Part shown: positions 27,747-53,896 of the stretch, piece after piece
How the letters are laid out: each line of letters starts with the position of its first letter
How positions within the stretch are numbered: position 1 is the stretch's first letter
Notes under the pieces: model-generated
Seen by the model: the letters and a program-made list of their open reading frames with translations, nothing else
Told to the model about the DNA's origin: nothing
Databases searched by the model: none
Program-made: the position numbers and the translations under genes
Assembly: GCF_039596395.1 (NCBI RefSeq)
Contig: NZ_JBCNJT010000001.1
Span: 124,001-188,000, forward strand
DNA length: 64,000 nucleotides
Source of the DNA: Fluviicola sp.
GTDB lineage: Bacteria > Bacteroidota > Bacteroidia > Flavobacteriales_D > Crocinitomicaceae
Direction: 5' to 3'

Positions 27747-27850
27747 TTTGATTGAATTTTAATTATTATTTGTTTGTTTTTAGTTGTTCAAAAGGTTTAA
27801 AAGTTCAAAATGTTAAGTCTTGATATCCTGAAGTCTTAATGTCCTGATGT

Positions 27851-36668: not shown

Positions 36669-36673
36669 GTTCT

Positions 36674-37078: not shown

Positions 37079-37088
37079 GGGGTGTAAA

Positions 37089-37921: not shown

Positions 37922-38347
37922 TTAAAGTTTAAAGAATAAATGATCCAATGACAGGCTGTGCCATTCCACAGGAGTCAGTAAAAGGAGAAGAACCAGGGCC
38001 AGGCGCGGAAATACATGGCGCGTATCCCAAAGCGGTTCGTTCATTCCGAATCCGATTCCGGTAATGATGAGGTTGATTCCCAATAGGTAAAGAGCAATTG
38101 TCTCAAAAACACCAGGAACAAGTAAAGCACCGCAGATAAATGCTGAACAGGATGTAAACAGGGCGGCAAGTGCAGTTAACAACCGCGGAATTCCTTTCAG
38201 ACGGAACCGCGCCTGATAAGTATTGGTTACCTCTTTCAATCCGATATTAAAAAGAGCATCATACCCCTGAAACAGGAACAAAAATCCGATGAATACGCGC
38301 GCTATGGTAATTCCTGCGATGTAATGATAATGAGTAATGAGTTCCAT
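37922..38347 (-). CDS. DoxX-like membrane protein
   Basis: 141 aa, four membrane segments: YIAGITIARVFIGFLFLFQGYDALF, LLTALAALFTSCSAFICGALLVP, FETIALYLLGINLIITGIGFG and FPRLALVLLLLLTPV. The first segment, with RVFIGFLFLFQGYDALFN, is the DoxX-type start. DoxX proteins work with quinone-linked or disulfide redox systems in some bacteria; here the role is open. First gene of the operon doxX-usp-hypothetical-hsp20, starting 18 bp after the TAATTTTG box. Confidence 0.75.
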   Translation of the reverse strand: MELITHYHYIAGITIARVFIGFLFLFQGYDALFNIGLKEVTNTYQARFRLKGIPRLLTALAALFTSCSAFICGALLVPGVFETIALYLLGINLIITGIGFGMNEPLWDTRHVFPRLALVLLLLLTPVEWHSLSLDHLFFKL

Positions 38348-38364: not shown

Positions 38365-38429
38365 CAAAATTACAGGCAGTTAAATGGAATATAAATGAGG
38401 CTTGTCAACTATCGGGATGATGTACGTCA
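38365..38429 (-). promoter_or_regulatory. Regulated doxX promoter, 65-bp module
   Basis: On the minus strand: -7 box TAATTTTG (38372-38365), proximal site TGAGGCTTGTCA (38396-38407, centre 38401.5) and distal site TGATGTACGTCA (38418-38429, centre 38423.5). From the -7 G to the proximal centre is 36.5 bp; the two centres are 22 bp apart. Position fits -41.5 and -63.5 for a Crp/FNR-family activator. Confidence 0.75.
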
Positions 38430-38430
38430 G

Positions 38431-38495
38431 TGAGTAAGCTCAATTACCGGGGTGATTTGAATCATTTTACAACTTGCTGTGAATCTGAATCTTTG
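38431..38495 (+). promoter_or_regulatory. Regulated promoter of the first BON gene, 65-bp module
   Basis: Distal site TGAGTAAGCTCA (38431-38442), proximal site TGATTTGAATCA (38453-38464), -7 box AATCTTTG (38488-38495, one mismatch to TAnnTTTG). Same 22-bp and 36.5-bp spacings as the divergent doxX promoter; only 1 bp separates the two modules. Confidence 0.75.
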
Positions 38496-38522
38496 CTGTG
38501 TTAACTTTTAAAATCAGTTGGT

Positions 38523-39206
38523 ATGAAAACAGATGTGGAGATTCAGAAACATGTGATGGAAGAGTTGAAGTGGGAACCTTCTATTCATTCATCGGAAATT
38601 GGCGTAGCGGTAAAAAACGGAGTTGTTACGCTATCGGGAACGGTTGATACCTACCTGGAGAAGACAACCGCTGAAAAAGCCGCACTTAAAGTTGCCGGGG
38701 TGAAAGGCCTTGCTGAAGACATTCAGATTAATCTTCCGTTCAATCATCAGAAAACCGATACGGAATTGGCTCAGGCAGCATTGGATGCATTGAAATGGAA
38801 TGTGCTGGTGCCGAATGACCAAATAAAGATCAAGGCGGAAAATGGTTGGATTACTGCTAAAGGAACCGTGGAATGGGCTTATGAACAAAATGCAGTCCGG
38901 GATGCTATTGCAACTATCAAAGGAGTAAAAGGAATCAGTAACCTGGTAAAAGTTATTCCTAAAGTTGATCCGAAGGATGTGAAGAAGAAAATTTCCGCCG
39001 CATTTGAAAGAAACGCTTTGGTGGATGCCAATCATATTCACGTAGAAAACAGTGGCAGCAAAGTTATATTGGGAGGAAAAGTGTCTTCCTATGCAGAAAA
39101 GCGGGAAGCCGAGCATGTAGCCTGGAATGTGCCGGGAGTTGCTACTGTTGAGAACAACATCGAGGTGAAAATTCCCTCTTATGCTGAGATCGGAAGAAAT
39201 CTATAA
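38523..39206 (+). CDS. Triple BON-domain protein
   Basis: 227 aa with three BON domains of ~70 residues: EIQKHVMEELKWEPSIHSSEIGVAVKNGVVTLSGTVDTYLEKTTAEKAALKVAGVKGLAEDI, then AQAALDALKWNVLVPNDQIKIKAENGWITAKGTV and ISAAFERNALVDANHIHVENSGSKVILGGKVSSYAEKREAEHVAWNVPGVATVENNI. BON domains bind membranes or lipids; here no signal peptide is present, so cytoplasmic. The second protein of this type is at 41757-42428. The pair flanks the sensor kinase and REC-Crp genes. Confidence 0.92.
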   Translation: MKTDVEIQKHVMEELKWEPSIHSSEIGVAVKNGVVTLSGTVDTYLEKTTAEKAALKVAGVKGLAEDIQINLPFNHQKTDTELAQAALDALKWNVLVPNDQIKIKAENGWITAKGTVEWAYEQNAVRDAIATIKGVKGISNLVKVIPKVDPKDVKKKISAAFERNALVDANHIHVENSGSKVILGGKVSSYAEKREAEHVAWNVPGVATVENNIEVKIPSYAEIGRNL

Positions 39207-39223
39207 TCCTTGGGTTGAGTTAC

Positions 39224-39251
39224 AAAAAAGCACCTTCACAAGGTGCTTTTT
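39224..39251 (+). terminator. Terminator of the first BON gene
   Basis: AAAAGCACCTT, CAC loop and AAGGTGCTTTTT: an 11-bp perfect stem with U tract 18 bp after the stop at 39206. Confidence 0.88.
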
Positions 39252-39275
39252 CAGTTTTCGGTTTCGTGTTTTGGA

Positions 39276-39340
39276 TGACAATAATCAGCGCGACAGATGA
39301 TAAAAATCATCTGTTCGGCAGTTCCTGGTTTTTACTTTTG
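39276..39340 (+). promoter_or_regulatory. Regulated promoter of the kinase/REC-Crp operon, 65-bp module
   Basis: Distal site TGACAATAATCA (39276-39287), proximal site TGATAAAAATCA (39298-39309), -7 box TACTTTTG (39333-39340, exact). Spacings 22 bp and 36.5 bp as in the other modules. The proximal site has a perfect FNR-type core (TGAT-N4-ATCA). If REC-Crp binds here, it is autoregulated. Confidence 0.78.
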
Positions 39341-39368
39341 ATCTCTGTGCAAAAAGTGTATATTCGTT

Positions 39369-40571
39369 ATGGACTACGAATTCAAAAAAATGGAGAGCAA
39401 AGAAGGGGTTGATGCATTGTTTTTGCACGCAACGGAAGGGATCCTGGTTACCGATTCACAAGGAAGCATTACACGGATAAACCCGAGTGCTGAAAAATTA
39501 TTCGGCTACAACCCGGGAGAATTGACAGGAAGAAAAATAGAAACATTAGTACCCTCCAGATTTTCACAGAAACACGAAGATAACCGGGCAGAATATGCAC
39601 ATCATCCGCATGCAAGGGCAATGGGATTGGGAATGGAATTGTTCGGATTGAAAAAAGACGGTTCCGAATTCCCGGTGGAAATCAGTTTAAGTCCATATAG
39701 TAATGAAGAGGGAAACTTCGTAATTGCCTTCATTGTAGACGTGACACTTCGAAAAGAAGCTGAGATGAAACTCCGGAATTATTCCGAAGACCTGGAAAAA
39801 CAGGTTAGGAACAGAACACTTATCCTGGAAGAAGCCATCAGGGAACTGGAACGCACCAAAGGAGAGCTGGATGCTTCGCTCGCCAAAGAGAAGGAATTAA
39901 ATGAGATGAAGTCCAGGTTCGTTTCAATGGCTTCACATGAATTCCGCACTCCACTTACCACTATGATGTCCTCTTTATCGTTGGTAAGTAAGTACAATGA
40001 ACGGAACGATACGGCCAATCATGCCAAACACATTCATAAAATTGAAAGGTCCATTATTAACCTGACAGATATACTCAATGATTTTCTCTCTGTTTCCAAA
40101 CTGGAAGAAGGAAAAGTGGGGAACCTTCCCGAAGAAGTGAACCTGAAACAATTCCTGTTGGATATTTGTTCCGAAATGCAGGGAATGTTATCCGGAAAAC
40201 AAACCATTGTCCAGGATTATTCAGGAGATGAGCAGGTGTTTTTAGATCCTAAATTACTTCGCAATATCCTGTTCAATTTGATTTCGAACGCCATTAAATT
40301 CTCTCCTGAAGAAGGTGTAATTGAATTAACAGTTCTGGTCGGAGAAGATACGGTTTCCATATCGGTGAAAGACCATGGGATCGGTATCAGTGAACAAGAT
40401 CAGAAACACCTCTTTGAACGGTTTTTCCGCGGAGGAAATGCAACGCATATCCAGGGAACCGGTTTGGGATTGAACATTGTTGCACGCTACGCAGAACTGA
40501 TGAACGGAAAAGTTACCATTGAAAGTGTTCAGAACCAGGGAACAACCGCCAGATTATTAATTCCACGTTAA
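39369..40571 (+). CDS. Cytoplasmic PAS sensor histidine kinase
   Basis: 400 aa, no membrane segment. PAS domain at ~12-130 (FLHATEGILVTDSQGSITRINPSAEKLFGYNPGELTGRKIETLVPSRF ... FGLKKDGSEFPVEISLSPY), a coiled linker, HisKA with SMASHEFRTPLTTMMSSL (H190) and HATPase_c (NILFNLISNAIKFSPEEG, VKDHGIGISEQDQKHLFERFFRGG, GTGLGLNIVARYAELMNGKVTIES). His69 in QKHEDNRAEY aligns with the haem-ligating histidine of FixL (RSRHDGYIARY), but this His is common in the PAS subfamily, so haem is only a possibility. It should phosphorylate the REC-Crp protein encoded 12 bp downstream. Confidence 0.93.
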   Translation: MDYEFKKMESKEGVDALFLHATEGILVTDSQGSITRINPSAEKLFGYNPGELTGRKIETLVPSRFSQKHEDNRAEYAHHPHARAMGLGMELFGLKKDGSEFPVEISLSPYSNEEGNFVIAFIVDVTLRKEAEMKLRNYSEDLEKQVRNRTLILEEAIRELERTKGELDASLAKEKELNEMKSRFVSMASHEFRTPLTTMMSSLSLVSKYNERNDTANHAKHIHKIERSIINLTDILNDFLSVSKLEEGKVGNLPEEVNLKQFLLDICSEMQGMLSGKQTIVQDYSGDEQVFLDPKLLRNILFNLISNAIKFSPEEGVIELTVLVGEDTVSISVKDHGIGISEQDQKHLFERFFRGGNATHIQGTGLGLNIVARYAELMNGKVTIESVQNQGTTARLLIPR

Positions 40572-40582
40572 TTCACACACTT

Positions 40583-41641
40583 ATGAAAAAGATATTACTG
40601 ATTGAAGACAACCCGGATATTCGTGAGAACACCGCCGAAATACTGGATTTGGCGCAGTACCGGGTATTGACCGCCGAAAATGGCAAAGAAGGAGTTCAGC
40701 TGGCACTCAAAGAACTTCCCGATTTGATTATTTGTGATATTATGATGCCGGTTCTGGACGGATACGGAGTCTTGCACTTATTGTCAAAGAATGAAACTAC
40801 GGCCGCTATTCCTTTTGTTTTCCTGACTGCTAAGGCAGACCGGGGTGATATTCGTAAAGGCATGTCTATGGGAGCGGATGACTACCTGACAAAACCTTTT
40901 ACGGACCAGGAATTACTGAGCGCAATCGAAACCCGGTTAACGAAAAATGATATCCTGAAAAAACAATTCTCAAGAGATGTGGAAGGAGTTAATCATTTTT
41001 TGAACGAAGCCAGGGGTTTTGATGTTTTGACTGAGTTATCCAAATCGCGCGACTTAAGACACTACAAAAAGAAAGACGCTATTTTCCTCGAAGGTTCTTA
41101 TCCCAAAGGAGTTTATTTTATTGAAAAAGGAAAAGTAAAGATCTATCAGAAAAATGACCAGGGCAAAGAACTCATCAGCAGCCTTCACAAAGCAGGTGAC
41201 TTTTTCGGTTTTCTGTCTTTATTGAAAGATGAACAATACATTCATTCTGCAACAGCTTTGGAGGATACAGAGATTTATATGATTCCCAAAGAGGATTTCT
41301 TTTCCCTGCTTTATAAGAATACGGCGGTTGCACGAAAATTCATTGAGTTGCTTTCCGATAACCTGCTTGAAAATGAGCAACAATTGATGCGCCTTGCCTA
41401 TAATTCTGTCAGAAAACGGGTAGCAGAAGCATTGGTTAAACTGTCGGATACCTATAAAAAGGAAACTGATCAGCAATTCAGTATGCATGTTTCGCGCGAA
41501 GACCTGGCCAATTTGGTCGGTACGGCCAAAGAAACGGTAATCCGTACCCTGAGCGACTTTAAAGAGGATAGATACATCGAAATCTCGGGAAGTACGATCA
41601 CCATTCTGAATTACGATCAGTTGGTTGGTATGAAAAACTGA
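40583..41641 (+). CDS. REC-Crp fusion transcription regulator
   Basis: 352 aa. Receiver domain 1-125: ILLIEDNPDIRENT, phospho-Asp D52 in LIICDIMMPVLDGYG, Thr in FVFLTAKAD and Lys in DDYLTKPF. Cyclic-nucleotide-binding-fold domain ~145-250 (RDLRHYKKKDAIFLEGSYPKGVYFIEKGKVKIYQ) without an Fe-S cysteine set. C-terminal HTH_Crp ~265-340 (FSMHVSREDLANLVGTAKETVIRTLSDFKEDRYIEI); the recognition helix keeps the E and R that read the TGA half-site in Crp/FNR proteins. A phosphorylation-controlled Crp-type activator; best candidate to bind the TGA-N6-TCA modules found in front of this block's operons. Confidence 0.93.
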   Translation: MKKILLIEDNPDIRENTAEILDLAQYRVLTAENGKEGVQLALKELPDLIICDIMMPVLDGYGVLHLLSKNETTAAIPFVFLTAKADRGDIRKGMSMGADDYLTKPFTDQELLSAIETRLTKNDILKKQFSRDVEGVNHFLNEARGFDVLTELSKSRDLRHYKKKDAIFLEGSYPKGVYFIEKGKVKIYQKNDQGKELISSLHKAGDFFGFLSLLKDEQYIHSATALEDTEIYMIPKEDFFSLLYKNTAVARKFIELLSDNLLENEQQLMRLAYNSVRKRVAEALVKLSDTYKKETDQQFSMHVSREDLANLVGTAKETVIRTLSDFKEDRYIEISGSTITILNYDQLVGMKN

Positions 41642-41666
41642 TCCTGATACCCGTCAATTCAGAGGC

Positions 41667-41731
41667 TGAGTAGCGTCATAACCTGTTCTGAGTAAGCTCA
41701 TTTCATTTAAACAGTTGATTGAATTCCTTTG
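41667..41731 (+). promoter_or_regulatory. Regulated promoter of the second BON gene, 65-bp module
   Basis: Distal site TGAGTAGCGTCA (41667-41678), proximal site TGAGTAAGCTCA (41689-41700), -7 box TTCCTTTG (41724-41731, one mismatch). Spacings 22 and 36.5 bp. The proximal site is identical to the distal site of the first BON promoter. A ribosome site AAGGAG is at 41745-41750. Confidence 0.75.
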
Positions 41732-41756
41732 TGATGTAATCTAAAAAGGAGAAATC

Positions 41757-42428
41757 ATGAAAACAAATGAACAGTTACAAAAAGATGTACAGGATGCTAT
41801 TAAATGGGAGCCATTATTAAAAGCAGCAGAAATTGGCGTTATTGTCAAAGATGGAATTGTGACCCTGACAGGGACCGTTGATAACTACGCCAAAAAACTG
41901 CAGGTTGAAAAAGCCGCAAAAAGTGTTCTTGGAGTGAAGGCAATTGCAGAGGACATAGAAGTGAAATTTGCCGATTCCAAAAAGAAAGACGATGCGGAGA
42001 TCGCCGAAGATGTTGTTTTTGCCTTAAGTGTTGATTTGATTGTTCCGGATAAAAAGATCCAGGTGAAAGTCGAAAACGGGTGGGTGACTTTGGAGGGCGA
42101 AGTACACTGGAATTTTCAAAGAGAAGCTGCCAAGCGTGCTATTGAACACATTACAGGAGTGCGCGGGGTATTTAATCATTTAAAGATCAAATCCGAACTA
42201 AACGATGCAATTGAACAAAAGGAGATAGAAGCAGCACTTCACAGAAGCTGGGCTGTCAATGACAAAGATATCCGGGTTCATGTTGAAGGTCGAACTGTCA
42301 GACTTACCGGAACCGTTGCTTCTTTGTATCAGAAGGAAGAAGCCGGCCGTATTGCATGGAAAACTCCGGGTATTTGGCACGTCGAGAATAATTTGGAAGT
42401 CGATTACGAATATGCACTGATCGACTAG
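41757..42428 (+). CDS. Triple BON-domain protein (second copy)
   Basis: 223 aa, three BON domains in the same order as 38523-39206: QKDVQDAIKWEPLLKAAEIGVIVKDGIVTLTGTVDNYAKKLQVEKAAKSVLGVKAIAEDI; AEDVVFALSVDLIVPDKKIQVKVENGWVTLEGEVHWNFQREAAKRAI; IEAALHRSWAVNDKDIRVHVEGRTVRLTGTVASLYQKEEAGRIAWKTPGIWHVENNL. Clearly a paralogue made by duplication. No signal peptide. Followed by its own terminator and the 131-aa gene. Confidence 0.92.
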   Translation: MKTNEQLQKDVQDAIKWEPLLKAAEIGVIVKDGIVTLTGTVDNYAKKLQVEKAAKSVLGVKAIAEDIEVKFADSKKKDDAEIAEDVVFALSVDLIVPDKKIQVKVENGWVTLEGEVHWNFQREAAKRAIEHITGVRGVFNHLKIKSELNDAIEQKEIEAALHRSWAVNDKDIRVHVEGRTVRLTGTVASLYQKEEAGRIAWKTPGIWHVENNLEVDYEYALID

Positions 42429-42436
42429 AAGTCAGC

Positions 42437-42463
42437 AGGTGGAATCGGTTTTTCCACCTTTTT
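42437..42463 (+). terminator. Terminator after the second BON gene
   Basis: AGGTGGAA, a 7-nt loop and TTCCACCT with TTTTT; 8-bp stem, 9 bp after the stop at 42428. Probably partial, since the next gene has only 24 bp left for a promoter. Confidence 0.75.
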
Positions 42464-42487
42464 AGTTTCATCAAAAAAACAGAAAAA

Positions 42488-42883
42488 ATGGACTCAACCA
42501 AAAACGCAGGAATATGGATGGATTATTCCACGGCGCACGTGATTGATGCTACGGATTTCAAGACAGAGATTATCGCATCCAAATTTTCACCGGACATCCG
42601 GAAAGAGGTCGTGAAGAAAGGCGAAAAACACTTGCATAACAAAGAACAGCAGTTACAGGAAGCCTATTTTAAACAGATATCTGATAAAATAATGGGGTAT
42701 GACAAGGTGCTGTTATTCGGCCCGGAAAATGCCAAGACTGAACTGCAGCACTACCTGAGCAATGAAAGTCGGTTTAATCATATAACGGTGGCTGTTGAAT
42801 CAACGGATAAAATGACGGAGAACGAGAAAAAAGCATTTGTAAGAATGCACTTTAACTTTAGATCGAATGGTAACTTGGCATGA
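42488..42883 (+). CDS. Host-attachment/eRF1-like small protein (tentative)
   Basis: 131 aa: MDSTKNAGIWMDYSTAHVIDATD ... GEKHLHNKEQQLQEAYFKQISDKIMGYDKVLLFGPENAKTELQHYLSNESRFNHITVAVESTDKMTENEKKAFVRMHF. The GIWMDYSTAHVI start and the LLFGPENAKTELQHYL segment recall the eRF1 domain-1 or host-attachment type fold (also seen in ribosome-associated stress proteins). Assignment is tentative. Its location in the stress regulon, after BON, fits a low-oxygen survival role. Confidence 0.6.
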   Translation: MDSTKNAGIWMDYSTAHVIDATDFKTEIIASKFSPDIRKEVVKKGEKHLHNKEQQLQEAYFKQISDKIMGYDKVLLFGPENAKTELQHYLSNESRFNHITVAVESTDKMTENEKKAFVRMHFNFRSNGNLA

Positions 42884-42898
42884 TTAAAATGACGTTTT

Positions 42899-43060
42899 AT
42901 GAAGATAAACAAGGATTGGCATGACAAAAACAAAATGCCTAAAAATGCCACTTTTGAGCAACGGGTTAAATGGCATGTAGAACATCAAAAGCATTGTTCT
43001 TGCAGGCCCATTCCGGAGAAATTGCTTCATGAAATGGAGCAGCGGAAGAATCTGGAGTGA
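42899..43060 (+). CDS. 53-aa cysteine/histidine-containing small protein
   Basis: MKINKDWHDKNKMPKNATF, then EQRVKWHVEHQKHCSCRPIP and EKLLHEMEQRKNLE to a TGA at 43060. It is below the usual length cutoff but has coding character: a WHxxH-x3-CxC pattern (H at 28 and 31, C at 34 and 36) that could bind a metal ion, and no rare codons. It starts 15 bp after the 131-aa gene, so it is likely co-transcribed. Function unknown; I recall similar short proteins in Bacteroidota, weakly. Confidence 0.6.
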   Translation: MKINKDWHDKNKMPKNATFEQRVKWHVEHQKHCSCRPIPEKLLHEMEQRKNLE

Positions 43061-43072
43061 TTATCTAAGCAA

Positions 43073-43137
43073 TGAGACAAATCAATCTGGATCATGAGAT
43101 GTATTAGCTGGAAAAGGCACCCGATCAATCTTTTTTG
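43073..43137 (+). promoter_or_regulatory. 65-bp regulated promoter module facing a geneless stretch
   Basis: Distal site TGAGACAAATCA (43073-43084), proximal site TGAGATGTATTA (43095-43106, one mismatch in the right half), and TTTG at 43134-43137 (full -7 CTTTTTTG, lacking TA). Both spacings, 22 and 36.5 bp, are exactly those of the other modules. The only thing downstream on this strand is ~45 bp and a terminator, which predicts a small RNA. Confidence 0.6.
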
Positions 43138-43141
43138 CGCG

Positions 43142-43211
43142 TTGTTCCGCAAATTTAAACAAGATTCCGCTTGCTATTGTGACAGGCTCATCAATTCTGG
43201 TGGGCCTTTTT
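43142..43211 (+). ncRNA. Predicted regulated small RNA
   Basis: Starts 5 nt after the -7 G, as predicted for the sibling promoters, and ends in the U run of the terminator at 43185-43212, giving ~70 nt. Upstream of the terminator is a ~43-nt stretch with CCGC repeats (TTCCGC at 43145 and 43165). A 33-codon TTG frame crosses the terminator but looks accidental. By analogy with FnrS, the FNR-activated RNA of E. coli, it would be induced under the regulon's signal (analogy only). Confidence 0.55.
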
Positions 43212-43212
43212 G
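43185..43212 (+). terminator. Intrinsic terminator of the predicted small RNA
   Basis: GGCTCATCA, ATTC loop and TGGTGGGCC pair fully (three G-U pairs), followed by TTTTT. No converging gene needs it except read-through from 43060. Confidence 0.75.
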
Positions 43213-43240
43213 TTTCCGGGAAATTAGATTGTATGAATGA

Positions 43241-43963
43241 TTACTTTTCAGGCTGATGGCATTCAACAATCACTGATTTTGGATGTCCCGGGTTCAATTG
43301 CTCAATCTTCGGGCTTAAGACCGGAATTCCGAAATTAGCTCCGCGCAAAATCACCAATAAGCCGATGATGGACAAGAGGTATGGAAAAGCCCCGGTTAAT
43401 CTGTTGCGAAACGATTGATTGAACCGTTGAGCAAAGAATCCGACTCCGATGAGTGCCGGGAGTGTACCCAATCCGAATGCAGCCATGGCGGATGCGCTTC
43501 CAAGAGGATTTTCCGCTAAAAGCGCATTGGTTAAAGCCAAAAAGATCATGCCGCAAGGAAGTAATCCGTTTAATAAGCCTATGCCGAACAGTTTTAAAGT
43601 CCCTTTTTGTCGAAGTAAAAGCTGCATGCGTCCGGAAACCCATTTTTGAAATCCCGGGGATCGAAACTCGATGTGCCGGAGTAACTGTTTTCTCCAGGCA
43701 ATTGCGATCAGTAACAGGCCGAACAGGATACTCAATACCTGGAATAACCGGAACAACTGAAGCGAAAACCCGATACTTCCGATTACAAAACCCAGAAGCG
43801 TATAAGTAATTATCCGGCCGGTATTTGCAGTCAAAAGATCAGCCAATACGGTTGCGGGTGATTTCCGGTTAACCGGAAGTGCGAGTGCTATTGGCCCGCA
43901 CATCCCGATGCAGTGAAACGAACCCGCAAGTCCCAAAATGAAAGAACTGATCAGGAAAATCAT
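43241..43963 (-). CDS. SafE/TauE-like membrane protein of the cbb3 operon
   Basis: 240 aa, about six membrane segments. It begins MIFLISSFILGLAGSFHCIGMCGPIALALP; the HCIGMCGP motif is typical of the family found behind ccoH in Bacteroidota and proteobacteria, thought to help copper delivery or oxidase assembly. Later: FGIGLLNGLLPCGMIFLALTNALL. The start ATG overlaps the ccoH stop (TAATG), so they are coupled. Last gene of the operon. Confidence 0.85.
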   Translation of the reverse strand: MIFLISSFILGLAGSFHCIGMCGPIALALPVNRKSPATVLADLLTANTGRIITYTLLGFVIGSIGFSLQLFRLFQVLSILFGLLLIAIAWRKQLLRHIEFRSPGFQKWVSGRMQLLLRQKGTLKLFGIGLLNGLLPCGMIFLALTNALLAENPLGSASAMAAFGLGTLPALIGVGFFAQRFNQSFRNRLTGAFPYLLSIIGLLVILRGANFGIPVLSPKIEQLNPGHPKSVIVECHQPEK

Positions 43964-44388
43964 TACGGAATGGTGATTTGCTGAGACATTTCATACGGCC
44001 GATCCTGAATGGAACCTTGAATAGTACAGTTGAAAAGCCCTTTCGGGAAAGAAGAGGTCGGAATGATCACTTTTTCGATAGGTACGATCATGAAAGAAAC
44101 GTCCTTGTTTTTGTCATTCGGTCGCTGAAAACTAACCTTTACTTCCTCCGATTGAAAGTCTTTCGGAAAATAGATCAGTAAGCTGTCGGACTTACTCTCA
44201 ATACTGATTTTTTCTATGGCGGAAGCATAGACTTTTTGAGCGTTAAACTGATCGTCGTAATTCAACTCACGCGTGTAATAATCTTCTTCCACCAGGTCAA
44301 TGTTCTGACGCATCAGGATGCTTACCAATAGTAAAATAAACGCCATAAACAGTGCCATCCCGATAATGATTCCTTTTCCCCAATTCAT
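43963..44388 (-). CDS. ccoH: FixH/CcoH-family cbb3 oxidase assembly protein
   Basis: 141 aa: MNWGKGIIIGMALFMAFILLLVSILMRQNIDLVEEDYYTRELNYDDQFNAQKVYASA. One N-terminal membrane segment followed by the FixH pattern DLVEEDYYxxELxYxxQ, and a periplasmic Ig-like domain ending PYEMSQQITIP. FixH is needed for cbb3 oxidase assembly. It is separated from ccoG by 234 bp with an 8-bp tandem array, which is unusual inside this operon. Confidence 0.9.
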   Translation of the reverse strand: MNWGKGIIIGMALFMAFILLLVSILMRQNIDLVEEDYYTRELNYDDQFNAQKVYASAIEKISIESKSDSLLIYFPKDFQSEEVKVSFQRPNDKNKDVSFMIVPIEKVIIPTSSFPKGLFNCTIQGSIQDRPYEMSQQITIP

Positions 44389-44432
44389 AATTTAAGTATT
44401 TGTTATGTAATAATTTCAGCCGGAGCAGATTA

Positions 44433-44514
44433 AATAGTTCAATAGTTCAATAGTTCAATAGTTCAATAGTTCAATAGTTCAATAGTTCAATAGTTCAATA
44501 GTTCAATAGTTCAA
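44433..44514. repeat. Ten perfect 8-bp tandem repeats (AATAGTTC)
   Basis: Ten consecutive perfect copies fill 44433-44512, plus AA. Simple enough to vary by slippage. It lies between ccoG and ccoH, 45 bp upstream of the ccoH start. No direct repeat with unique spacers, so it is not a CRISPR. Confidence 0.9.
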
Positions 44515-44580
44515 GATCTTGTAAAAAACCTATTCCGACTTATCGATTTTTCAATGGTCCATTTTCAATTTTCTAATCTT

Positions 44581-44616
44581 TTAAACGTTTTGAACCTTTT
44601 GAACCTTTGAACTTTC
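44581..44616. repeat. TTGAAC array after ccoG, mirror arm of the AATAGTTC array
   Basis: Three TTGAAC-type units (TTTTGAACC, TTTTGAACC, TTTGAAC) face the GTTCAA units of the 44433 array, so the two arms can pair across the gap. It ends TTGAACTTTCT directly before the ccoG stop region, as at 10732-10745. Confidence 0.5.
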
Positions 44617-44622
44617 TCCCCT

Positions 44623-47410: not shown

Positions 47411-47601
47411 GGCCTTTCATTTTGAGTTATATCATCCGTACTAAGAGGAATAGCGCTTAATTCTTCGATGGTGGATTTTTTCATTTTCCACAGGCGAATG
47501 AATACGATCAGGAAGAAGAGCACAAAGATCATCAGGGAGAATATCCCGTAAAATGCTACTCCCGATTCACTTGCCAAATGGTGTTTAATAAATCGTAACA
47601 T
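47407..47601 (-). CDS. ccoQ: CcoQ-type small membrane subunit
   Basis: 64 aa with one membrane segment (GVAFYGIFSLMIFVLFFLIVFIRLW) and a basic, short tail. Sits between ccoNO and ccoP, the place of CcoQ in cbb3 operons. CcoQ stabilises the oxidase complex. Sequence is poorly conserved, so it is named from position. Confidence 0.8.
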   Translation of the reverse strand: MLRFIKHHLASESGVAFYGIFSLMIFVLFFLIVFIRLWKMKKSTIEELSAIPLSTDDITQNERP

Positions 47602-47604
47602 ACT

Positions 47605-49791
47605 TTATTTTTTAGTTTGTTTGACTTTAATATCTGTACCCATACGCTGCAGATAGGCGATCAGAGCGATGATTTCTTTCTGTTTCAATTCGTTGATCTT
47701 TGCATTTTTATCCTGGCCGTTCAGCGCAATTTTCGGCGTGTTTTCAACAATGTCAGTAGCGATTTCCAATGCTTGTTGATCTAAATCGGCCTTTGCTTTT
47801 TGCGCGTATCCTTTTGGATAAGGAACCCCAAGCGTTTGCATCGCTTCAATTTTTTTCGCTAATAAATCCGTATTCAAATCGTCGTCTTTCAACCAGGTGT
47901 AAGCCGGCATAATAGATCCGGGAGACAACGCTTTCGGGTCTATCATGTGCTTATAATGCCAGAGGTTTCCGCGTAATCCTCCTTCACGGGCCAAATCAGG
48001 GCCGGTTCTCTTGGAACCCCATAGGAACGGATGGTCGTAAACATGTTCACCTGCTTTTGTGTAGCCTCCGCTTTCCGGAGTGGGCGCATAGCGGGCCGTT
48101 TCAAAACGCAGCGGGCGGATCATTTGGGAGTGACAATTGTTACAGCCTTCTCGGATGTAAATGTCCCGGCCTTCCAGTTCGAGCGGAGAATAAGGTTTTA
48201 CACTGCTGATCGTCGGGATATTGGATTTCACGGCGATGGTCGGAATAATTTCTGCCAGTCCTCCTATTGCAACAACCAAAATACTCAGCAGCATGAATCG
48301 AACCGGTTTTCCTTCAATTCTGCGGTGCCAATATTCCCTGCCTTTAGCCGCATGTGCTCTTTCTACAGCCACTTCTACTGTTTCATTTGCAGCAAACGAA
48401 CCTTTTTTGACCGTTTTAATCACATTGTAAACAAGCATCAAAGCTCCGATGATGTAAAGGAAGCCACCGACTGATCTCAGGATGTAATACGGCTTCATGT
48501 CGATAACAATTTCTAAAAAGTCTTTGTGGACCAGAGTTCCGTCAGGATTGAAATGCTGCCAGCTTAGTCCCTGCATAAACCCTGCGATATACATCGGAAC
48601 CGCGTACAGGATAATTCCCAAAGTTGCAATCCAAAAATGCTGGTTTGCCAGTTTTCTGGAGTACAATTCCGTCTTGAATAGTTTAGGAATTAGCCAGTAA
48701 ATCAATCCGAAAGTCATCATTCCGTTCCAGCCAAGCCCTCCTACGTGTACGTGAGCAATGGTCCAATCGGTAAAGTGGGAAAGCATGTTCACTGATTTTA
48801 AAGAAAGCAGCGGTCCTTCAAAGGTGGCCATCCCGTAACAAGTAAGTGCTACCACCATAAATTTCAGCATCACATCATCCCGTACACGATCCCATGCACC
48901 ACGCAATGTCAGCAGTCCGTTTAGCATTCCACCCCAGGAAGGAGCAATCAGCATGACAGAAAATACAACACCCAGACTTTGAGCCCAATCCGGTAATGAA
49001 GTGTACAACAGGTGATGAGGTCCGGCCCAGATGTAAATGAAAATCAGCGCCCAAAAGTGAATAATGGATAAACGATAGGAATATACCGGGCGATTGGCTG
49101 CTTTCGGAACAAAGTAATACATCAGTCCCAGGTAAGGCGTTGTCAGGAAGAAAGCCACCGCATTGTGTCCGTACCACCATTGAACCAGGGCATCCTGAAC
49201 TCCGGCATACCAGGAATAGCTTTTTAAGAAAGAGATCGGTAGTTCGAATGAATTAAAAATGTGCAACATGGCAACAGTCACAAAAGTGGCGATGTAAAAC
49301 CAGATCGCTACGTATAAATGCTTTACGCGGCGATTCAGAATGGTGGCAAACAAGTTCCATCCGAACAGCACCCAGATGATGGCGATCAGGATATCAATCC
49401 ACCATTCTAGTTCTGCATATTCTTTGCTGGAACTGATTCCAAAAGGCAAAGTTAAAACGGCACAAACAATGATAAATTGCCATCCCCAAAAATTCAAATA
49501 ACTCAGTTTATCGCTCCACATACGTGTTTTCAACAAACGCTGGAGTGAATAGTAAACACCCATGAAAATACCGTTCCCCACAAAGGCAAAAATCACTGCG
49601 TTGGTATGCAGGGGTCTGATTCTGCCAAACGAAATGTACCGGAATCCCAGGTAATCATTGAAAAATTCTGGAAAAGCCAATTGCAGGGCGGCAATTAACC
49701 CCACAAGCATCCCGATAACGCCCCAAAGAATGGTGGCGAATGCGAAATTTTTGACAATCCTATTGTCGTACTTTACTGTTTCTATTTCCAT
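47605..49791 (-). CDS. ccoNO: Fused cbb3 oxidase subunits I and II (CcoNO)
   Basis: 728 aa from MEIETVKYDNRIVKNFAFATILWGVIGMLVGL; the extra 26 codons up to 49869 have no family match. The first ~480 residues are CcoN: haem/copper-binding HTNAVIFAFVGNGIFMGV, WWYGHNAVAFFLTTPYLGLMYY, HFWALIFIYIWAGPHHLLY, DWTIAHVHVGGLGWNG. After a linker comes CcoO: EGRDIYIREGCNNCHSQMIRPLRFE with CNNCH as the haem c site. The fusion is the typical Bacteroidota form. The high-affinity terminal oxidase reduces O2 at low oxygen and pumps protons. Confidence 0.97.
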   Translation of the reverse strand: MEIETVKYDNRIVKNFAFATILWGVIGMLVGLIAALQLAFPEFFNDYLGFRYISFGRIRPLHTNAVIFAFVGNGIFMGVYYSLQRLLKTRMWSDKLSYLNFWGWQFIIVCAVLTLPFGISSSKEYAELEWWIDILIAIIWVLFGWNLFATILNRRVKHLYVAIWFYIATFVTVAMLHIFNSFELPISFLKSYSWYAGVQDALVQWWYGHNAVAFFLTTPYLGLMYYFVPKAANRPVYSYRLSIIHFWALIFIYIWAGPHHLLYTSLPDWAQSLGVVFSVMLIAPSWGGMLNGLLTLRGAWDRVRDDVMLKFMVVALTCYGMATFEGPLLSLKSVNMLSHFTDWTIAHVHVGGLGWNGMMTFGLIYWLIPKLFKTELYSRKLANQHFWIATLGIILYAVPMYIAGFMQGLSWQHFNPDGTLVHKDFLEIVIDMKPYYILRSVGGFLYIIGALMLVYNVIKTVKKGSFAANETVEVAVERAHAAKGREYWHRRIEGKPVRFMLLSILVVAIGGLAEIIPTIAVKSNIPTISSVKPYSPLELEGRDIYIREGCNNCHSQMIRPLRFETARYAPTPESGGYTKAGEHVYDHPFLWGSKRTGPDLAREGGLRGNLWHYKHMIDPKALSPGSIMPAYTWLKDDDLNTDLLAKKIEAMQTLGVPYPKGYAQKAKADLDQQALEIATDIVENTPKIALNGQDKNAKINELKQKEIIALIAYLQRMGTDIKVKQTKK

Positions 49792-49960
49792 CGTTGTTTT
49801 GATTTGTTTCATGAGCAGTCGAGTCGTCCTCGTAAAGAATGCGGACGCTCGGGGAATAATCGTCGTCATACTGTCCGGTTTTGGCGGCCCAAAGAAAGAT
49901 GGCCAGGAAAAACACCGCCAGACAGAGGCTTACGATTAGCATAATGTAGATCATTCCCAT
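49760..49960 (-). CDS. ccoS: CcoS cbb3 maturation protein
   Basis: 66 aa: MGMIYIMLIVSLCLAVFFLAIFLWAAKTGQYDDDYSPSVRILYEDD. One membrane segment and the CcoS signature WAxKTGQYDD. Needed for cofactor insertion into cbb3 oxidase. It overlaps the ccoNO start by 32 bp. The promoter module predicts transcription from about 49960, almost at the ATG, so the message may be leaderless or the start may be the second Met (49954). Confidence 0.9.
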   Translation of the reverse strand: MGMIYIMLIVSLCLAVFFLAIFLWAAKTGQYDDDYSPSVRILYEDDSTAHETNQNNDGNRNSKVRQ

Positions 49961-49964
49961 ACTG

Positions 49965-50029
49965 CAAAGAACACCACCAAACGCCGATTAAAATATGATC
50001 TATGTAACCGGAAAAACTGATTTATATCA
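49965..50029 (-). promoter_or_regulatory. Regulated promoter of the cco operon, 65-bp module
   Basis: On the minus strand: TTTG ending at 49965 (full box GTTCTTTG), proximal site TGATCTATGTAA (49996-50007, one mismatch) and distal site TGATTTATATCA (50018-50029, perfect). Same 36.5- and 22-bp spacing as the other modules. The -7 lacks its TA, so the promoter should depend strongly on the activator. Confidence 0.6.
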
Positions 50030-50090
50030 TGTTTAAGAAGTAACTGGCAGGAATGACCTGTTTCAAGCATTTTTTCCTGTTTTTTGCGGA

Positions 50091-52463
50091 CTATAAACCA
50101 GCGGGAGGAAGCTTTTTCCGAAGAGTCAGGAAGGTTGCCAGTCCGACGACGGTTACGGAACTCATCGGCATAAGGATAGTGGCTACAAACGGAGTGAGCT
50201 GGCCGCTTACGGCGAAACCTATTCCGGTCAGGTTGTAGCATAACGAAAACGCAAAACAGATGCGCAGGAACGTTTTCCCACTTCCGATGTAGCGGAAATA
50301 GGACGCTAAATAAGGTAAGTTCCCTGCTTTCAAAATGGCATCGGAAGCAGGTGTGAAACGAACCAGGTCTTCCGAAAGGGCAATACCCACAAAAGCTTCC
50401 TTTAAAGCTCCGGCGTCATTTAACCCGTCGCCGATCATGAGGGTATAATTCCCGTTTGCCTGCAGCTGTTGAATGAATTCCTTTTTTTGAAGCGGTTGTT
50501 GTTCGAAAAGAAACGTTGTTTTCGCAGGGAAAATAGTTTGAAGTAAATCCAGGTCTTTGGGTTTGTCACCTGAAATGACCGCTAATTGATAATGCGACCC
50601 CAGGTTCGCGATCAGTTCTTTCAATTGCGCCCGCAATTTCGATTGAAATCTGAAGGTTCCCAATAATTTTCCTTCAGCAGCAAAATAAACAAGGGATTCG
50701 TCGCTGGTTTGTTGCTCCAGTCCGATAAAAGCAGCCGAACCTAATTGAAAACCATTCATTGAAATTCCTTTTCCGGGAACTTCAAGTGCGGTTTCAACGG
50801 CAGGTACTCCAGGAATTTGTTCTTGAAGTAATTCGTGAATGCCTTTTGCATAAGGATGAACCGCGTGTCTGGTCATCTGGAAAAGTGCCTGTTTTTCGAA
50901 TTCCGACAGTGCTTTTCCGGTATATTGGATGTGTTTGTGATCTTGCTCCGTTAAAGTTCCGGTTTTATCGAAAACCAGGTAGTTGCATTGCTGGATCCGT
51001 TCGATGATGGCCGTATTTCGAAGATAAAACCCTTTTTTACCCAGCACGCGCAACATGTTTCCGTAAACAAAAGGTACGGATAAGGCCAGAGCACAAGGAC
51101 AGGCTACGATCAGGATTGCAGTGACAATTTCAGGAATCTGAACCGGGTCGATGAATATCCAGGCAATGGAAGCCGCAATGGCCAATCCAATTACGGCAGC
51201 GATAAAGTATTTTGAAATGCGGTCCTGCCGGGTTTGAAAGAATAATTCAGTTTTTTTGGAATGCCCGTCATTCCACAATTGGGTAAGAACACTGCGTTCG
51301 GTGGTTTTGGAAACAACCAATTGAATGGTTTCTCCCATACATTTTCCCCCGGCATACAGCAGATCGCCTTTTTTCTTTTCAATCCAATCCGCTTCACCGC
51401 TCACAAAACTGTAATCCAATGTGGCTTTTCCGGAAAGCAGGATACAATCACAAGGAATGATTTCTTCGTTCCGGATGGAAATTTCGTCACCGACCTGTAA
51501 TTCGTCTATGGGACAAAGCACCGTGGTGTCATTCATTTTTTTGATGACTGCAACCGGGAAATAAGACCTGAAGTCCCGTTCGAATGACAACCACTGGTAG
51601 GTTTTTCCCTGGAACCATTTACCGATCAGCAGGAAAAAGATAAACGCGGCAAAAGAATCCATATAGCCGGGGCCGTCATTGCTGAAAATAGCGACACAAC
51701 TGCGGATGTAAAGTGCCAGGATACCGATTGCAATGGGAATATCCAGGTTCAGGCTGCGCATGCGGATTCCTGCAATGGCCGATTTGAAATAATCCTGTGC
51801 TGAAAACAGCAGTACAGGAATCGACACGGCAAACGAAAGGTAAGAACTCAGATTGCGAATTCCCGAATAAGTACGGTCAATGCCCAAGTATTCCGGGAAG
51901 CTCCAGAGCATAATACTCCCGAAAGCAAAACCGGCGATTCCCAATTGAAATAAAAGACGCTTGTTGAACGTACCGGTCGATTTATCTATAGCCTTGAAAT
52001 TCGGTTCGTAACCGATCCGGGTTAATAATAAAGCCAGTTCTGAAAGCTTTATGAGTTCCAGGTTCACGGTAATGGTAGCGGTCTTTTTCGGAAAATGGAT
52101 CGTGGAGCGCAGAATCCCCGCGTTTAACCGGTGCAAATGTTCCAGCAAAAAGATACAGCTTGCACAATGGATCTGAGGGAGATGGAGTGTAATCTTTACA
52201 ATACTTCCCTCTTGAAAATCAATGTGTTTTTTGCGCAATTCTTCATCGTCCAAAACGGAGAAAACCTCCCGGGGCACCTGGTTCGGCCGGATTCCTGCCT
52301 GGTAATCCTGCTCATAATACCCGCCAAGGGCATGTGCCGAGAGCAACTCATAAACCTGTTTGCAGCCGTTGCAGCAAAATGCATGCTGATCTGAATAGAG
52401 AACAGTCCCGGGCAGAACATCGTGACAATGATAACACGTCGTTTCTTCTGTTTGATTTTGCAT
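50091..52463 (-). CDS. ccoI: Copper P-type ATPase for cbb3 assembly (CcoI/FixI-type)
   Basis: 790 aa. Begins MQNQTEETTCYHCHDVLPG and CCNGCKQVYELLSAH, the N-terminal cysteine-rich domain of this subgroup, then an HMA-type domain (KITLHLPQIHCASCIFLLEHLHRLNAGI). Core: CPCALALSVP, DKTGTLTEQ, HAVHPYA, GDGLNDAGAL; eight membrane segments. It exports Cu(I) for the oxidase. Encoded 22 bp behind hemN, while the cco genes are in the next transcription unit. Confidence 0.93.
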   Translation of the reverse strand: MQNQTEETTCYHCHDVLPGTVLYSDQHAFCCNGCKQVYELLSAHALGGYYEQDYQAGIRPNQVPREVFSVLDDEELRKKHIDFQEGSIVKITLHLPQIHCASCIFLLEHLHRLNAGILRSTIHFPKKTATITVNLELIKLSELALLLTRIGYEPNFKAIDKSTGTFNKRLLFQLGIAGFAFGSIMLWSFPEYLGIDRTYSGIRNLSSYLSFAVSIPVLLFSAQDYFKSAIAGIRMRSLNLDIPIAIGILALYIRSCVAIFSNDGPGYMDSFAAFIFFLLIGKWFQGKTYQWLSFERDFRSYFPVAVIKKMNDTTVLCPIDELQVGDEISIRNEEIIPCDCILLSGKATLDYSFVSGEADWIEKKKGDLLYAGGKCMGETIQLVVSKTTERSVLTQLWNDGHSKKTELFFQTRQDRISKYFIAAVIGLAIAASIAWIFIDPVQIPEIVTAILIVACPCALALSVPFVYGNMLRVLGKKGFYLRNTAIIERIQQCNYLVFDKTGTLTEQDHKHIQYTGKALSEFEKQALFQMTRHAVHPYAKGIHELLQEQIPGVPAVETALEVPGKGISMNGFQLGSAAFIGLEQQTSDESLVYFAAEGKLLGTFRFQSKLRAQLKELIANLGSHYQLAVISGDKPKDLDLLQTIFPAKTTFLFEQQPLQKKEFIQQLQANGNYTLMIGDGLNDAGALKEAFVGIALSEDLVRFTPASDAILKAGNLPYLASYFRYIGSGKTFLRICFAFSLCYNLTGIGFAVSGQLTPFVATILMPMSSVTVVGLATFLTLRKKLPPAGL

Positions 52464-52485
52464 ATGGCTTCTTTCAGGTGTTCTT

Positions 52486-53841
52486 TCAAATCGTCATACT
52501 GAATTGCTTCACCGGATTCAGGTCTTTTAAATAGGCGTCGAAAGCCATGCAGCAATTCCTCACGAAGGGAATTCCTTTGGGAAGAATCCGGATGGTATTT
52601 TGTTCCCACTCAACCAGCCCGTCGGAAATAAGCTCCGATAACTGCAATTCCAGTTCCAGGCGATTCAGCAAAGTGTCTTCGGGAATTTCCGTTTCAAAAC
52701 GGCACATCAGGTTCAGAATGTGTTGCCGGATTTCCATATCAGGAGCACTCATTTCATGCCCGCGGGTAACAGGCAACAGGCCGCTTTCTACTAGTTCCAG
52801 GTAGCGCGCGGTACTTTTTTCGTTTTGGGCGAAACCGGATTTGCATTCTGAAATGGCGGACATTCCCAATCCGATCAGTAAACCGGAAGATTTGGTAGTA
52901 TACCCCATGAAATTCCGGTGTAATTGCTTTTCGCCGGCGGCTTTTGCCAAAGAATCACCGGGTAATGCAAAATGGTCCATTCCTATTTCCACGTATCCGT
53001 TCGTAACGAGCATTTGACGGGAAACTTCGTAAATTTCCCGCTTCAGGTCCGGGTCCGGAAGGTCTGACTCACTGTACCCGCGTTGCCCGGTTCCTTTTAT
53101 CCACGGCACATGTGCATAGGAATACAGGGAAATGCGGTCCGGTTTTAATTGCAGCGTGCAGCGAATAGCATGCTGAAAACCGGAAAGCGTTTGTTTGGGC
53201 AGGCCATAAACCAAATCGTGGGAAATGGCAGTGAATCCAACCTCTTTTGCTTGTTTGTGACACGATTCCACCAATTCGAAAGATTGCATGCGATGAATGG
53301 CTTTCTGAACCACGGGGTCATAATCCTGGATCCCGAAGCTAACTCTCCGGAACCCTTGTTCGTGCAATACCTCGAGGTGTTTCCGGGTTGTAGAATTCGG
53401 ATGAGCTTCAAAGCTTAAGGCTGCAGATCCGGTAAACGGAAAAACAGATTTGATTCCTGCGATGAGCCGTTTCAATTCTTCCGGAGCGAAAAATGTGGGA
53501 GTGCCACCACCCAAATGAAGTTCCTGGATGGAGGAATGTTTGTCGAGCGATGCTGCTAAAAGCTTCCATTCTGTGAGTACCGCATCAATATACCTGCTTT
53601 CCACCGCGTGATTGGTGGTAATGTGTTTGTGACACCCGCAGAACGTACACAGAGAATCGCAGTAGGGAAGGTGAATGTATAAAGCCAGGAGTTTGACCGG
53701 CTCTTCCTGTTGGGAAAGTGCAAGGAACTCACACCATTTCCCGGGATCCCATTGTTGCTTATTCCAGTAAGGAACCGTTGGATAAGAAGTGTATCTGGGG
53801 CCGGGAATATTGTATTTTGCAATCAGACCAGTATCTGTCAT
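52486..53841 (-). CDS. hemN: Oxygen-independent coproporphyrinogen III oxidase
   Basis: 451 aa from MTDTGLIAKYNIPGPRYTSYPTVPYW; a TTG five codons earlier is in the promoter. Radical-SAM motif YIHLPYCDSLCTFCGCHK (CxxxCxxC), then LHLGGGTPTFF, and the family's C-terminal HemN domain. It makes protoporphyrinogen without oxygen, supplying haem for the cbb3 oxidase. First gene of hemN-ccoI, with its own regulated promoter. Confidence 0.96.
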   Translation of the reverse strand: MTDTGLIAKYNIPGPRYTSYPTVPYWNKQQWDPGKWCEFLALSQQEEPVKLLALYIHLPYCDSLCTFCGCHKHITTNHAVESRYIDAVLTEWKLLAASLDKHSSIQELHLGGGTPTFFAPEELKRLIAGIKSVFPFTGSAALSFEAHPNSTTRKHLEVLHEQGFRRVSFGIQDYDPVVQKAIHRMQSFELVESCHKQAKEVGFTAISHDLVYGLPKQTLSGFQHAIRCTLQLKPDRISLYSYAHVPWIKGTGQRGYSESDLPDPDLKREIYEVSRQMLVTNGYVEIGMDHFALPGDSLAKAAGEKQLHRNFMGYTTKSSGLLIGLGMSAISECKSGFAQNEKSTARYLELVESGLLPVTRGHEMSAPDMEIRQHILNLMCRFETEIPEDTLLNRLELELQLSELISDGLVEWEQNTIRILPKGIPFVRNCCMAFDAYLKDLNPVKQFSMTI

Positions 53842-53853
53842 GGCTTTTTTTTG

Positions 53854-53896
53854 CAAAGCTAACTGGCAGCAACCCCTGAAAAAATGATGTACGTCA
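53854..53896 (-). promoter_or_regulatory. Regulated hemN promoter
   Basis: -7 box TAGCTTTG (53861-53854, exact) and site TGACGTACATCA (53896-53885, minus strand). The centre is 36.5 bp from the -7 G, as in the six other promoters. A distal site at 22 bp is absent. Same 12 bases as the distal doxX site. Confidence 0.75.

Follow-up and report, generated by a model that had tools for sequence, protein, structure and literature searches.

The 64,000-nucleotide stretch of Fluviicola sp. contig NZ_JBCNJT010000001.1 analysed here (the window) carries a 65-base-pair (bp) promoter module that recurs in front of several operons, among them those of a cbb3 oxidase and of a PAS histidine kinase with REC-Crp, a receiver-fused Crp/FNR-type activator. 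The module is defined by two TGA-N6-TCA boxes with centres 22 bp apart and by a TTTG whose last G lies 36.5 bp from the centre of the inner box. Its geometry, its recurrence, the genes behind it, its co-occurrence with regulator genes and the conserved residues of these regulators can be read from the sequence. They suggest that the module is probably a low-oxygen promoter code of Bacteroidia for two Crp/FNR-family dimers, read either by an iron-sulphur FNR or by the pair of a heme-PAS kinase and REC-Crp. The seven promoters of the window are as follows.

38365-38429, minus strand: two-box module of the doxX promoter (inner box 38396-38407, outer box 38418-38429, last G of TTTG at 38365), an exact match with a full TAnnTTTG.
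38431-38495, plus strand: two-box module of BON-1 (outer box 38431-38442, inner box 38453-38464), an exact match.
39276-39340, plus strand: two-box module of the PAS kinase/REC-Crp operon, an exact match.
41645-41731, plus strand: BON-2 promoter (two-box module 41667-41731), with three exact boxes 22 bp apart at 41645, 41667 and 41689 and TTTG at 41728-41731.
43073-43137, plus strand: module upstream of a small-RNA candidate, with one mismatch in the inner box and a -7 element without TA.
49965-50029, minus strand: two-box module of the cbb3 oxidase (cco) operon, with the outer box TGATATAAATCA and one mismatch in the inner box.
53854-53896, minus strand: hemN-ccoI promoter, with the inner box only plus TAnnTTTG.

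Every coordinate of this geometry given in a preliminary description of the window was verified at all seven promoters, and its count of 11 exact boxes among 13, with one mismatch each in the cco and small-RNA inner boxes, was confirmed. Four modules (doxX, BON-1, kinase/REC-Crp and BON-2) are exact for both boxes and TTTG, and the doxX module likely serves the run doxX, usp, a 147-amino-acid gene and hsp20. That description had overlooked the third exact box of the BON-2 promoter (41645-41656), which lies 22 bp further out and in register. A full TAnnTTTG is present only at the doxX, kinase and hemN promoters; cco, like the small RNA, has no TA there. In a published start-site map of Flavobacterium psychrophilum, the TAnnTTTG element occupies positions -12 to -5 (PMC9723704). 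On this basis the inner box here would be centred at -41.5 relative to predicted start sites, in agreement with the position first proposed for it.

Next, we asked whether such a geometry could be a product of chance or of the composition of AT-rich intergenic DNA. Single boxes are indeed common: the window holds 43, against 25.0 (standard deviation 4.9) in dinucleotide shuffles, and the earlier estimate of about one per 4 kb was too low. In 300 Markov simulations, by contrast, the 5 exact box pairs of the window compare with a mean of 0.007 and its 4 full exact modules with none. The whole genome (4.64 Mb) contains 7 exact pairs at 22 bp, 5 of them in the window, and 5 exact full modules including TTTG, 4 of them in the window; the reversed pattern gave 0 in both searches. 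The fifth exact module (contig C2, 1176490-1176554, minus strand) lies upstream of a gene for a 93-amino-acid membrane protein. When one mismatch was allowed, four more places appeared: the small-RNA promoter, the cco promoter, a site overlapping BON-2 and C1:593342, which lies inside an open reading frame (ORF) and is probably a chance match. With up to two mismatches, 20 matches were found against 3 for the reversed control, and mismatched matches alone are therefore weak.

A promoter-blind sample, made of 40 stretches of 6-20 kb around the REC-Crp genes of relatives and picked by that gene only, gave the same geometry. A centre spacing of 22 bp occurred 40 times, against a mean of 0.58 for other spacings between 12 and 120 bp; the largest other count, 6 at 35 bp, is expected for divergent module pairs like doxX/BON-1. 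TTTG followed a box centre at 36.5 bp 51 times and at 58.5 bp (36.5 + 22) 70 times, against a mean of about 9 at other offsets. When the 70 outer boxes with TTTG were aligned, the TGA and TCA of an inner box emerged, each base at 67-86%, and in 80% an A appeared unprompted at the third position ahead of TTTG, matching the TAnnTTTG -7 element. A TTG at the -33 place was found in 1 of 58 exact modules. The proposal that chance hardly explains seven promoters of one geometry was thus borne out by the simulations, the reversed-pattern controls and the 22-bp peak, and the scan of genome and relatives for the box pair plus TTTG, which the preliminary description had suggested, recovered the module repeatedly while simulated or reversed sequence gave almost none. 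Chance or composition is refuted for the promoter set, for which we consider it extremely improbable, and may still account for individual members with mismatches, for instance the small-RNA promoter, the weakest of the set.

The same counts changed our view of the two boxes. The inner box had been overrated, since around the REC-Crp genes of relatives exact matches are more frequent for the outer box (70 against 51 with TTTG in place). This suggests that a strong outer site may promote occupation of a weak inner one. A single box at -41.5 was considered as the functional unit and found weak: when the inner box is exact and followed by TTTG, the outer box has three or more mismatches in 14 of 51 cases, and when the outer box is exact the inner has as many in 13 of 70, both numbers being near the roughly 9 chance matches per offset.

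Across the order, the exact module is present in 95 of 299 genomes, with 0 for the reversed control among the genomes listed, whereas a version with 23-bp spacing is present in 7 of 299, its control giving 1 match in one genome. That 22 bp is so strongly preferred to 23 bp suggests contact or abutment between the dimers. The seven carriers of the 23-bp version are G251, G113, G245 (genus g54), G010, G028 (g27), G189 and G198; five of them have REC-Crp, and the match at G010:C4:63554 lies about 1.3 kb from that gene. This spacing is possibly lineage-specific, or due to chance. In a sample of the phylum, counted from the matches listed, 24 of 198 genomes had the exact module, 23 of the 49 that share the class of this genome and 1 of the other 149; the reversed control was again 0. 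Module promoters also cluster at the regulator: in ten chosen genomes, 30 of 43 lie within 25 kb of REC-Crp, against 0.6 expected. One congener, G106, has two REC-Crp genes (at C1:2849k and C1:3994k, 80% and 69% identical to that of the window); of the 7 exact modules in that genome, 5 lie no further than 25 kb from the copy with the lower identity. Among the sampled genomes of the genus, exact modules number 2-7 in each of the seven that have REC-Crp and 0-1 in each of the four that lack it (exact p = 0.003).

The two proteins encoded behind the kinase/REC-Crp module are the following.

39369-40571, plus strand: PAS histidine kinase of 400 amino acids with PAS, HisKA and HATPase_c domains, a candidate heme-based oxygen sensor (His69).
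40583-41641, plus strand: REC-Crp response regulator of 352 amino acids with Response_reg, cNMP_binding and HTH_Crp_2 domains.

REC-Crp matches PF00027 (85.4 bits) and PF13545 (61.2 bits), corresponding to a cNMP-binding-like domain and HTH_Crp. The residues expected of a response regulator are present in all 41 aligned proteins (D9, D52, K104, E or D at position 8, T or S at 82), and the recognition helix has E317 and R321 in 41 of 41, with Thr the commonest residue at 316 (31 of 41). In Crp/FNR proteins, the Glu and Arg of this helix contact TGA/TCA. Inspection by eye found no N-terminal cysteine cluster in 13 aligned REC-Crp proteins, where the REC domain occupies the N-terminus, and the residues that contact cAMP in CRP look absent. 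One other protein of the genome exceeds the Pfam cut-off for HTH_Crp_2, an FNR-type paralogue without REC (C1:1945851-1946540). Its sequence contains CQDC...KSC and NIC, that is, an N-terminal cysteine cluster and a central Cys, and nine REC-less relatives have cysteines at similar positions. The recognition helices are nearly the same, TAKETVIR in REC-Crp and TATETLIR in the paralogue; as Thr is commonest at 316, most REC-Crp proteins match FNR even more closely.

In 40 of 41 loci, the kinase gene immediately precedes that of REC-Crp. By sequence, its PAS domain is nearest to 10jx (the best match), DosP and FixL; 10jx, described as the heme-binding PAS of a one-component transcription factor, shares the pattern H-x3-R-x2-Y-x3-P-x2-R-x-M-G with most of these kinases. 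A predicted structure of the domain (ten sequences; model confidence score pLDDT 85) has FixL as its top PDB match, followed by 10jx and EcDOS. His69, at the position expected for the proximal heme His of the PAS F-helix, is present in 38 of 39 aligned kinases, the fortieth being a fragment that lacks this stretch; all ten kinase PAS domains of a second alignment have it, those of Mucilaginibacter and Arcticibacter, which are FixL-like, among them, and it aligns with a heme-binding His of DosP and 10jx. FixL has a distal Arg, R220. The corresponding residue is Met89 in the window kinase and Arg in the Mucilaginibacter and Arcticibacter homologues; a FixL-like IIG(I/L)GR stretch is present in the kinases of Arcticibacter, Mucilaginibacter and Sphingobacterium. 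These likenesses make it a good inference that the kinase senses oxygen through heme.

We propose that low oxygen would leave the heme unloaded, upon which the PAS kinase would phosphorylate REC-Crp at Asp52. Two Crp/FNR-family dimers would then occupy neighbouring sites on the same DNA face, with centres at -41.5 and -63.5, 22 bp or about two turns apart. The inner dimer would touch RNA polymerase at -41.5, and both would jointly recruit it to a TAnnTTTG-like -7 element with no TTG-type -33 element. One predicted reader is the FNR-type protein with its N-terminal cysteine cluster; the other is REC-Crp, presumably phosphorylated by the adjacent kinase. REC-Crp probably runs kinase/REC-Crp, doxX-usp-hsp20, both BON genes and the unlinked gene of the 93-amino-acid membrane protein, and the module of its own operon makes positive autoregulation probable.

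The distribution of the two regulators bears on which of them reads the module. REC-Crp was found in 105 of 299 genomes, a count in which query span separates 21 genomes with REC-less matches only, among 126, and which includes a few partial or split matches. The FNR type was found in 96 of 299 at a threshold of E<=1e-45, near which some matches are distant. Of the 16 genomes that have both, 12 carry the exact module; the corresponding counts are 47 of 89 for REC-Crp alone, 29 of 80 for FNR alone and 7 of 114 where neither was found. The regulators avoid each other, as 16 genomes have both and about 34 would be expected if they were independent. The preliminary description had proposed a Crp-type regulon around REC-Crp. 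Its fixed geometry, its functional target set, which is the same in relatives, and the clustering of its promoters at REC-Crp were upheld, but REC-Crp as the only reader was rejected in favour of two readers, given the near-identical helix of the FNR paralogue, the modules of FNR-only genomes and a cco module that persists in congeners lacking REC-Crp. With moderate confidence we attribute the promoters that surround the REC-Crp gene to this regulator; those of cco and hemN-ccoI may be under FNR or under both regulators.

Several observations weigh against our reading. No exact module was found in 46 of the 105 genomes with REC-Crp, and 7 genomes have the module and neither regulator at the thresholds used. 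BON-1 relatives occur in only 4 of 14 genomes of the genus, all of them REC-Crp carriers and none among the four without REC-Crp, so the contrast within the genus partly reflects gain or loss of target genes. Of 13 genomes of the genus with a ccoN match (our own included), 11 keep the exact outer box, the spacing and the TTTG of the cco promoter, with at most two mismatches over both boxes, in a comparison where the REC-Crp status of G340 and G343 is not covered; the geometry is kept, with 1-2 mismatches, in 2 of the 4 congeners without REC-Crp, one of which (G091) also has no FNR match. All tests treat genomes as independent and ignore kinship, and binding, expression and start sites in this organism are predictions. 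A rival explanation is an FNR-type protein that is the main reader of all these promoters, with REC-Crp using few of them or acting elsewhere and owing its position to a hitch-hiking gene cluster. This explanation draws on the paralogue in the same genome with its near-identical helix, on the FNR-only genomes with a module and on the cco outer box TGATATAAATCA, which fits the half-sites of the FNR consensus TTGAT-N4-ATCAA and persists in 2 of the 4 congeners without REC-Crp. However, the module is present in 47 genomes with REC-Crp and no FNR match, and the FNR-bearing congeners without REC-Crp (G082, G127 and G216) have 0-1 exact modules compared with 2-7 in REC-Crp congeners. Box composition also differs by locus type: position 9 of the outer box is A in 25 of 28 modules at loci without REC-Crp and in 25 of 54 at REC-Crp loci (p = 1.2e-4), as predicted for two readers of slightly different taste, with the caution that the samples are unlike, the loci without REC-Crp having been picked for holding exact modules. 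We consider FNR as the main reader of all these promoters unlikely, and two readers the better account.

On the kinase side, one of the 39 aligned kinases has Leu instead of His69, and LOV (flavin) domains appear among the structural matches of the PAS domain from rank 19 on. Since more than one gas can bind to heme-PAS domains and the ligand does not follow from the structure of a PAS domain by itself, the same promoter code and reader might serve a kinase that senses nitric oxide, carbon monoxide, redox, light or a metabolite in place of oxygen through heme. The targets (cbb3 oxidase, FixS, the CcoI-type ATPase and hemN), a typical microaerobic set, argue otherwise, as do the best sequence and structure matches (FixL, DosP and the heme PAS 10jx) and the FixL-like cognate kinases of Arcticibacter, Mucilaginibacter and Sphingobacterium. 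A signal other than oxygen thus appears rather doubtful to us, and oxygen sensing through heme is the reading that we retain.

Genes behind the modules of the window, besides those of the two regulators, are the following.

36204-36677, minus strand: Hsp20 small heat-shock protein (domain search).
37089-37910, minus strand: universal stress protein (domain search).
37922-38347, minus strand: DoxX-like membrane protein (PF07681, 23.0 bits, slightly below the cut-off of 23.6).
38523-39206, plus strand: BON-1, with three BON domains (domain search).
41757-42428, plus strand: BON-2, with three BON domains (domain search).
47605-49869, minus strand: fused CcoNO cbb3 oxidase subunit I/II (NF011053, 1217 bits; COX1 and FixO).
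50091-52463, minus strand: metal P-type ATPase, named CcoI from its position in the cco/hemN cluster.
52486-53841, minus strand: hemN, oxygen-independent coproporphyrinogen III oxidase (TIGR00538, 416.6 bits).

For hemN we preferred the ATG at 53841, as the start in the ORF list (53856) would overlap TTTG. Targets were then collected from 61 sources, namely the window, 40 REC-Crp loci and 20 loci picked for holding the module in genomes without REC-Crp. These gave 103 modules with up to two mismatches, of which 3 were flagged inside an ORF, reflecting the choice of ORF start for L118 and L124. Counted by module, the first downstream gene is a universal stress protein in 13, ccoN in 12 (one locus counted twice), the PAS kinase in 10, a 67-amino-acid FixS-like protein in 10 (FixS by PF03597), a CcoI-type ATPase in 7, a homologue of window 36674-37117 in 6, BON in 4 (two loci) and a DoxX-like gene in 4, followed by smaller groups and 15 singletons. 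The module precedes the PAS kinase in at least 10 of the 61 sources, window included, and the DoxX-like gene in the loci of four relatives. Further modules precede phosphoenolpyruvate-carboxykinase-like and rhodanese-like proteins, named from reading the sequence and not from a family search, and several precede genes with no obvious oxygen link. After the REC-Crp gene, an exact module in Arcticibacter and Mucilaginibacter, and one with one mismatch in Sphingobacterium, stands ahead of a protein that by eye resembles D-lactate dehydrogenase. The common targets are a microaerobic and fermentative set. The unlinked membrane-protein module (C2:1176490) recurs in five congeners, all, like our genome, with REC-Crp; the downstream gene was read in three of them (G139, G206 and G106), and G121 and G124 rest on near-identical modules. 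The 93-amino-acid protein has no Pfam or NCBIfam match; the same protein stands behind the module in G139 and G206, and relatives are present in G106 and G183.

Two candidate small RNAs were examined. The first lies behind the weakest module of the window.

43142-43212, plus strand: candidate small RNA of about 70 nucleotides with predicted transcription, ending in a 10-bp hairpin and a T run.

Its fold of -18.3 kcal/mol (z -1.89) was equalled by 8 of 200 shuffles. It belongs to no Rfam family at the gathering threshold, it has no non-self match with E below 0.6 in the compared loci (L001-L057 and L117-L176), and its module was not found after the neighbouring 53-amino-acid gene in three relatives' loci that keep that gene; the reading as a conserved RNA was accordingly rejected. 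The 53-amino-acid gene itself, unlisted before (42899-43060, plus strand, upstream of the small-RNA promoter), has an exact module of its own in G124. In genus g2 of the family, seven genomes (L167:5952-6187, L168 and L269-L273) have an exact module directly upstream of a conserved structured RNA of about 167 nucleotides with a terminator and long-range pairing. As only 2 of its 41 predicted pairs show double changes, conservation is the main support for this fold. No Rfam family was found at the gathering threshold in L167 and L168, the two loci searched. With a 169-nucleotide query, full-length copies were recovered from 2 of 120 family genomes, while in 8 more the match was only as long as the terminator. 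All seven genomes have an FNR match and none has a REC-Crp match. The g2 RNA is a candidate FNR-driven small RNA.

The module resembles class II activation by FNR, Anr and FixK of Proteobacteria in its TGA-N6-TCA core, the activator at -41.5 and its microaerobic targets (cco, hemN and usp). It differs in having two dimers at a fixed 22 bp as a rule, with the outer box exact at least as often as the inner, in the Bacteroidia -7 element TAnnTTTG and in an outer position of -63.5 rather than the usual class I position of -61.5. As in the FixL-FixJ-FixK system of rhizobia, a candidate heme-PAS kinase would control activation of cbb3 oxidase genes by a Crp-family protein; unlike there, receiver and Crp-type activator form a single fusion protein, which would combine the roles of FixJ and FixK. 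The pair contains no separate LuxR-type FixJ, the partner beside the kinase being REC-Crp, and the three-step cascade is not seen. A [4Fe-4S] FNR would share promoter module and recognition helix with REC-Crp, which has a receiver domain where FNR has its cysteine cluster. The g2 RNA parallels FnrS, the FNR-activated anaerobic small RNA of E. coli, in being a structured non-coding RNA behind an exact module; no sequence relation is implied, and the window candidate looks unrelated. Whether the code stays constant across the class while its reader swaps between FNR and a heme-kinase-driven REC-Crp, which would collapse FixL-FixJ-FixK into two proteins, and in one genus or more directs the synthesis of an FnrS-like small RNA, is in our judgement an evenly balanced question. 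If so, the module would be a natural example of regulators being exchanged while the promoter architecture stays the same.

Our literature search found no study of REC-Crp or of a 22-bp double box in Bacteroidota; many subscription papers lay outside it, and this is no proof of absence. In a 2021 bioreactor study, Crp/FNR homologues of a Flavobacteriales and a Saprospiraceae genome were predicted to sense carbon availability (PMC8510549). The switch of Bacteroidia to microaerobic life thus seems little described in the literature searched. With a 65-bp pattern of near-zero false rate, the low-oxygen regulon becomes readable from genomes. Two questions also open to experiment: why neighbouring dimers require exactly one spacing, and by what means a receiver domain can take over a Crp-type activator.

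Some further sites were noted. The 12-mer TGATGTACGTCA is present three times identically in the window (38418, 53885 and 62225), and the third copy, inside an ORF of 2138 amino acids, is probably not regulatory. A further module at 27712-27776 (plus strand) has TTTG in register and two mismatches in the inner box, a level at which chance matches occur. Single-box matches in the genome were rejected as regulon members, since allowing one mismatch gave 63 against 45 for the reversed control. Three single-box sites with TAnnTTTG (C1:839170, C1:848914 and C1:918497) precede genes for a bacterial globin (PF01152), a COX15/CtaA-like heme A synthase and a DUF983 protein, which are possible further low-oxygen targets.

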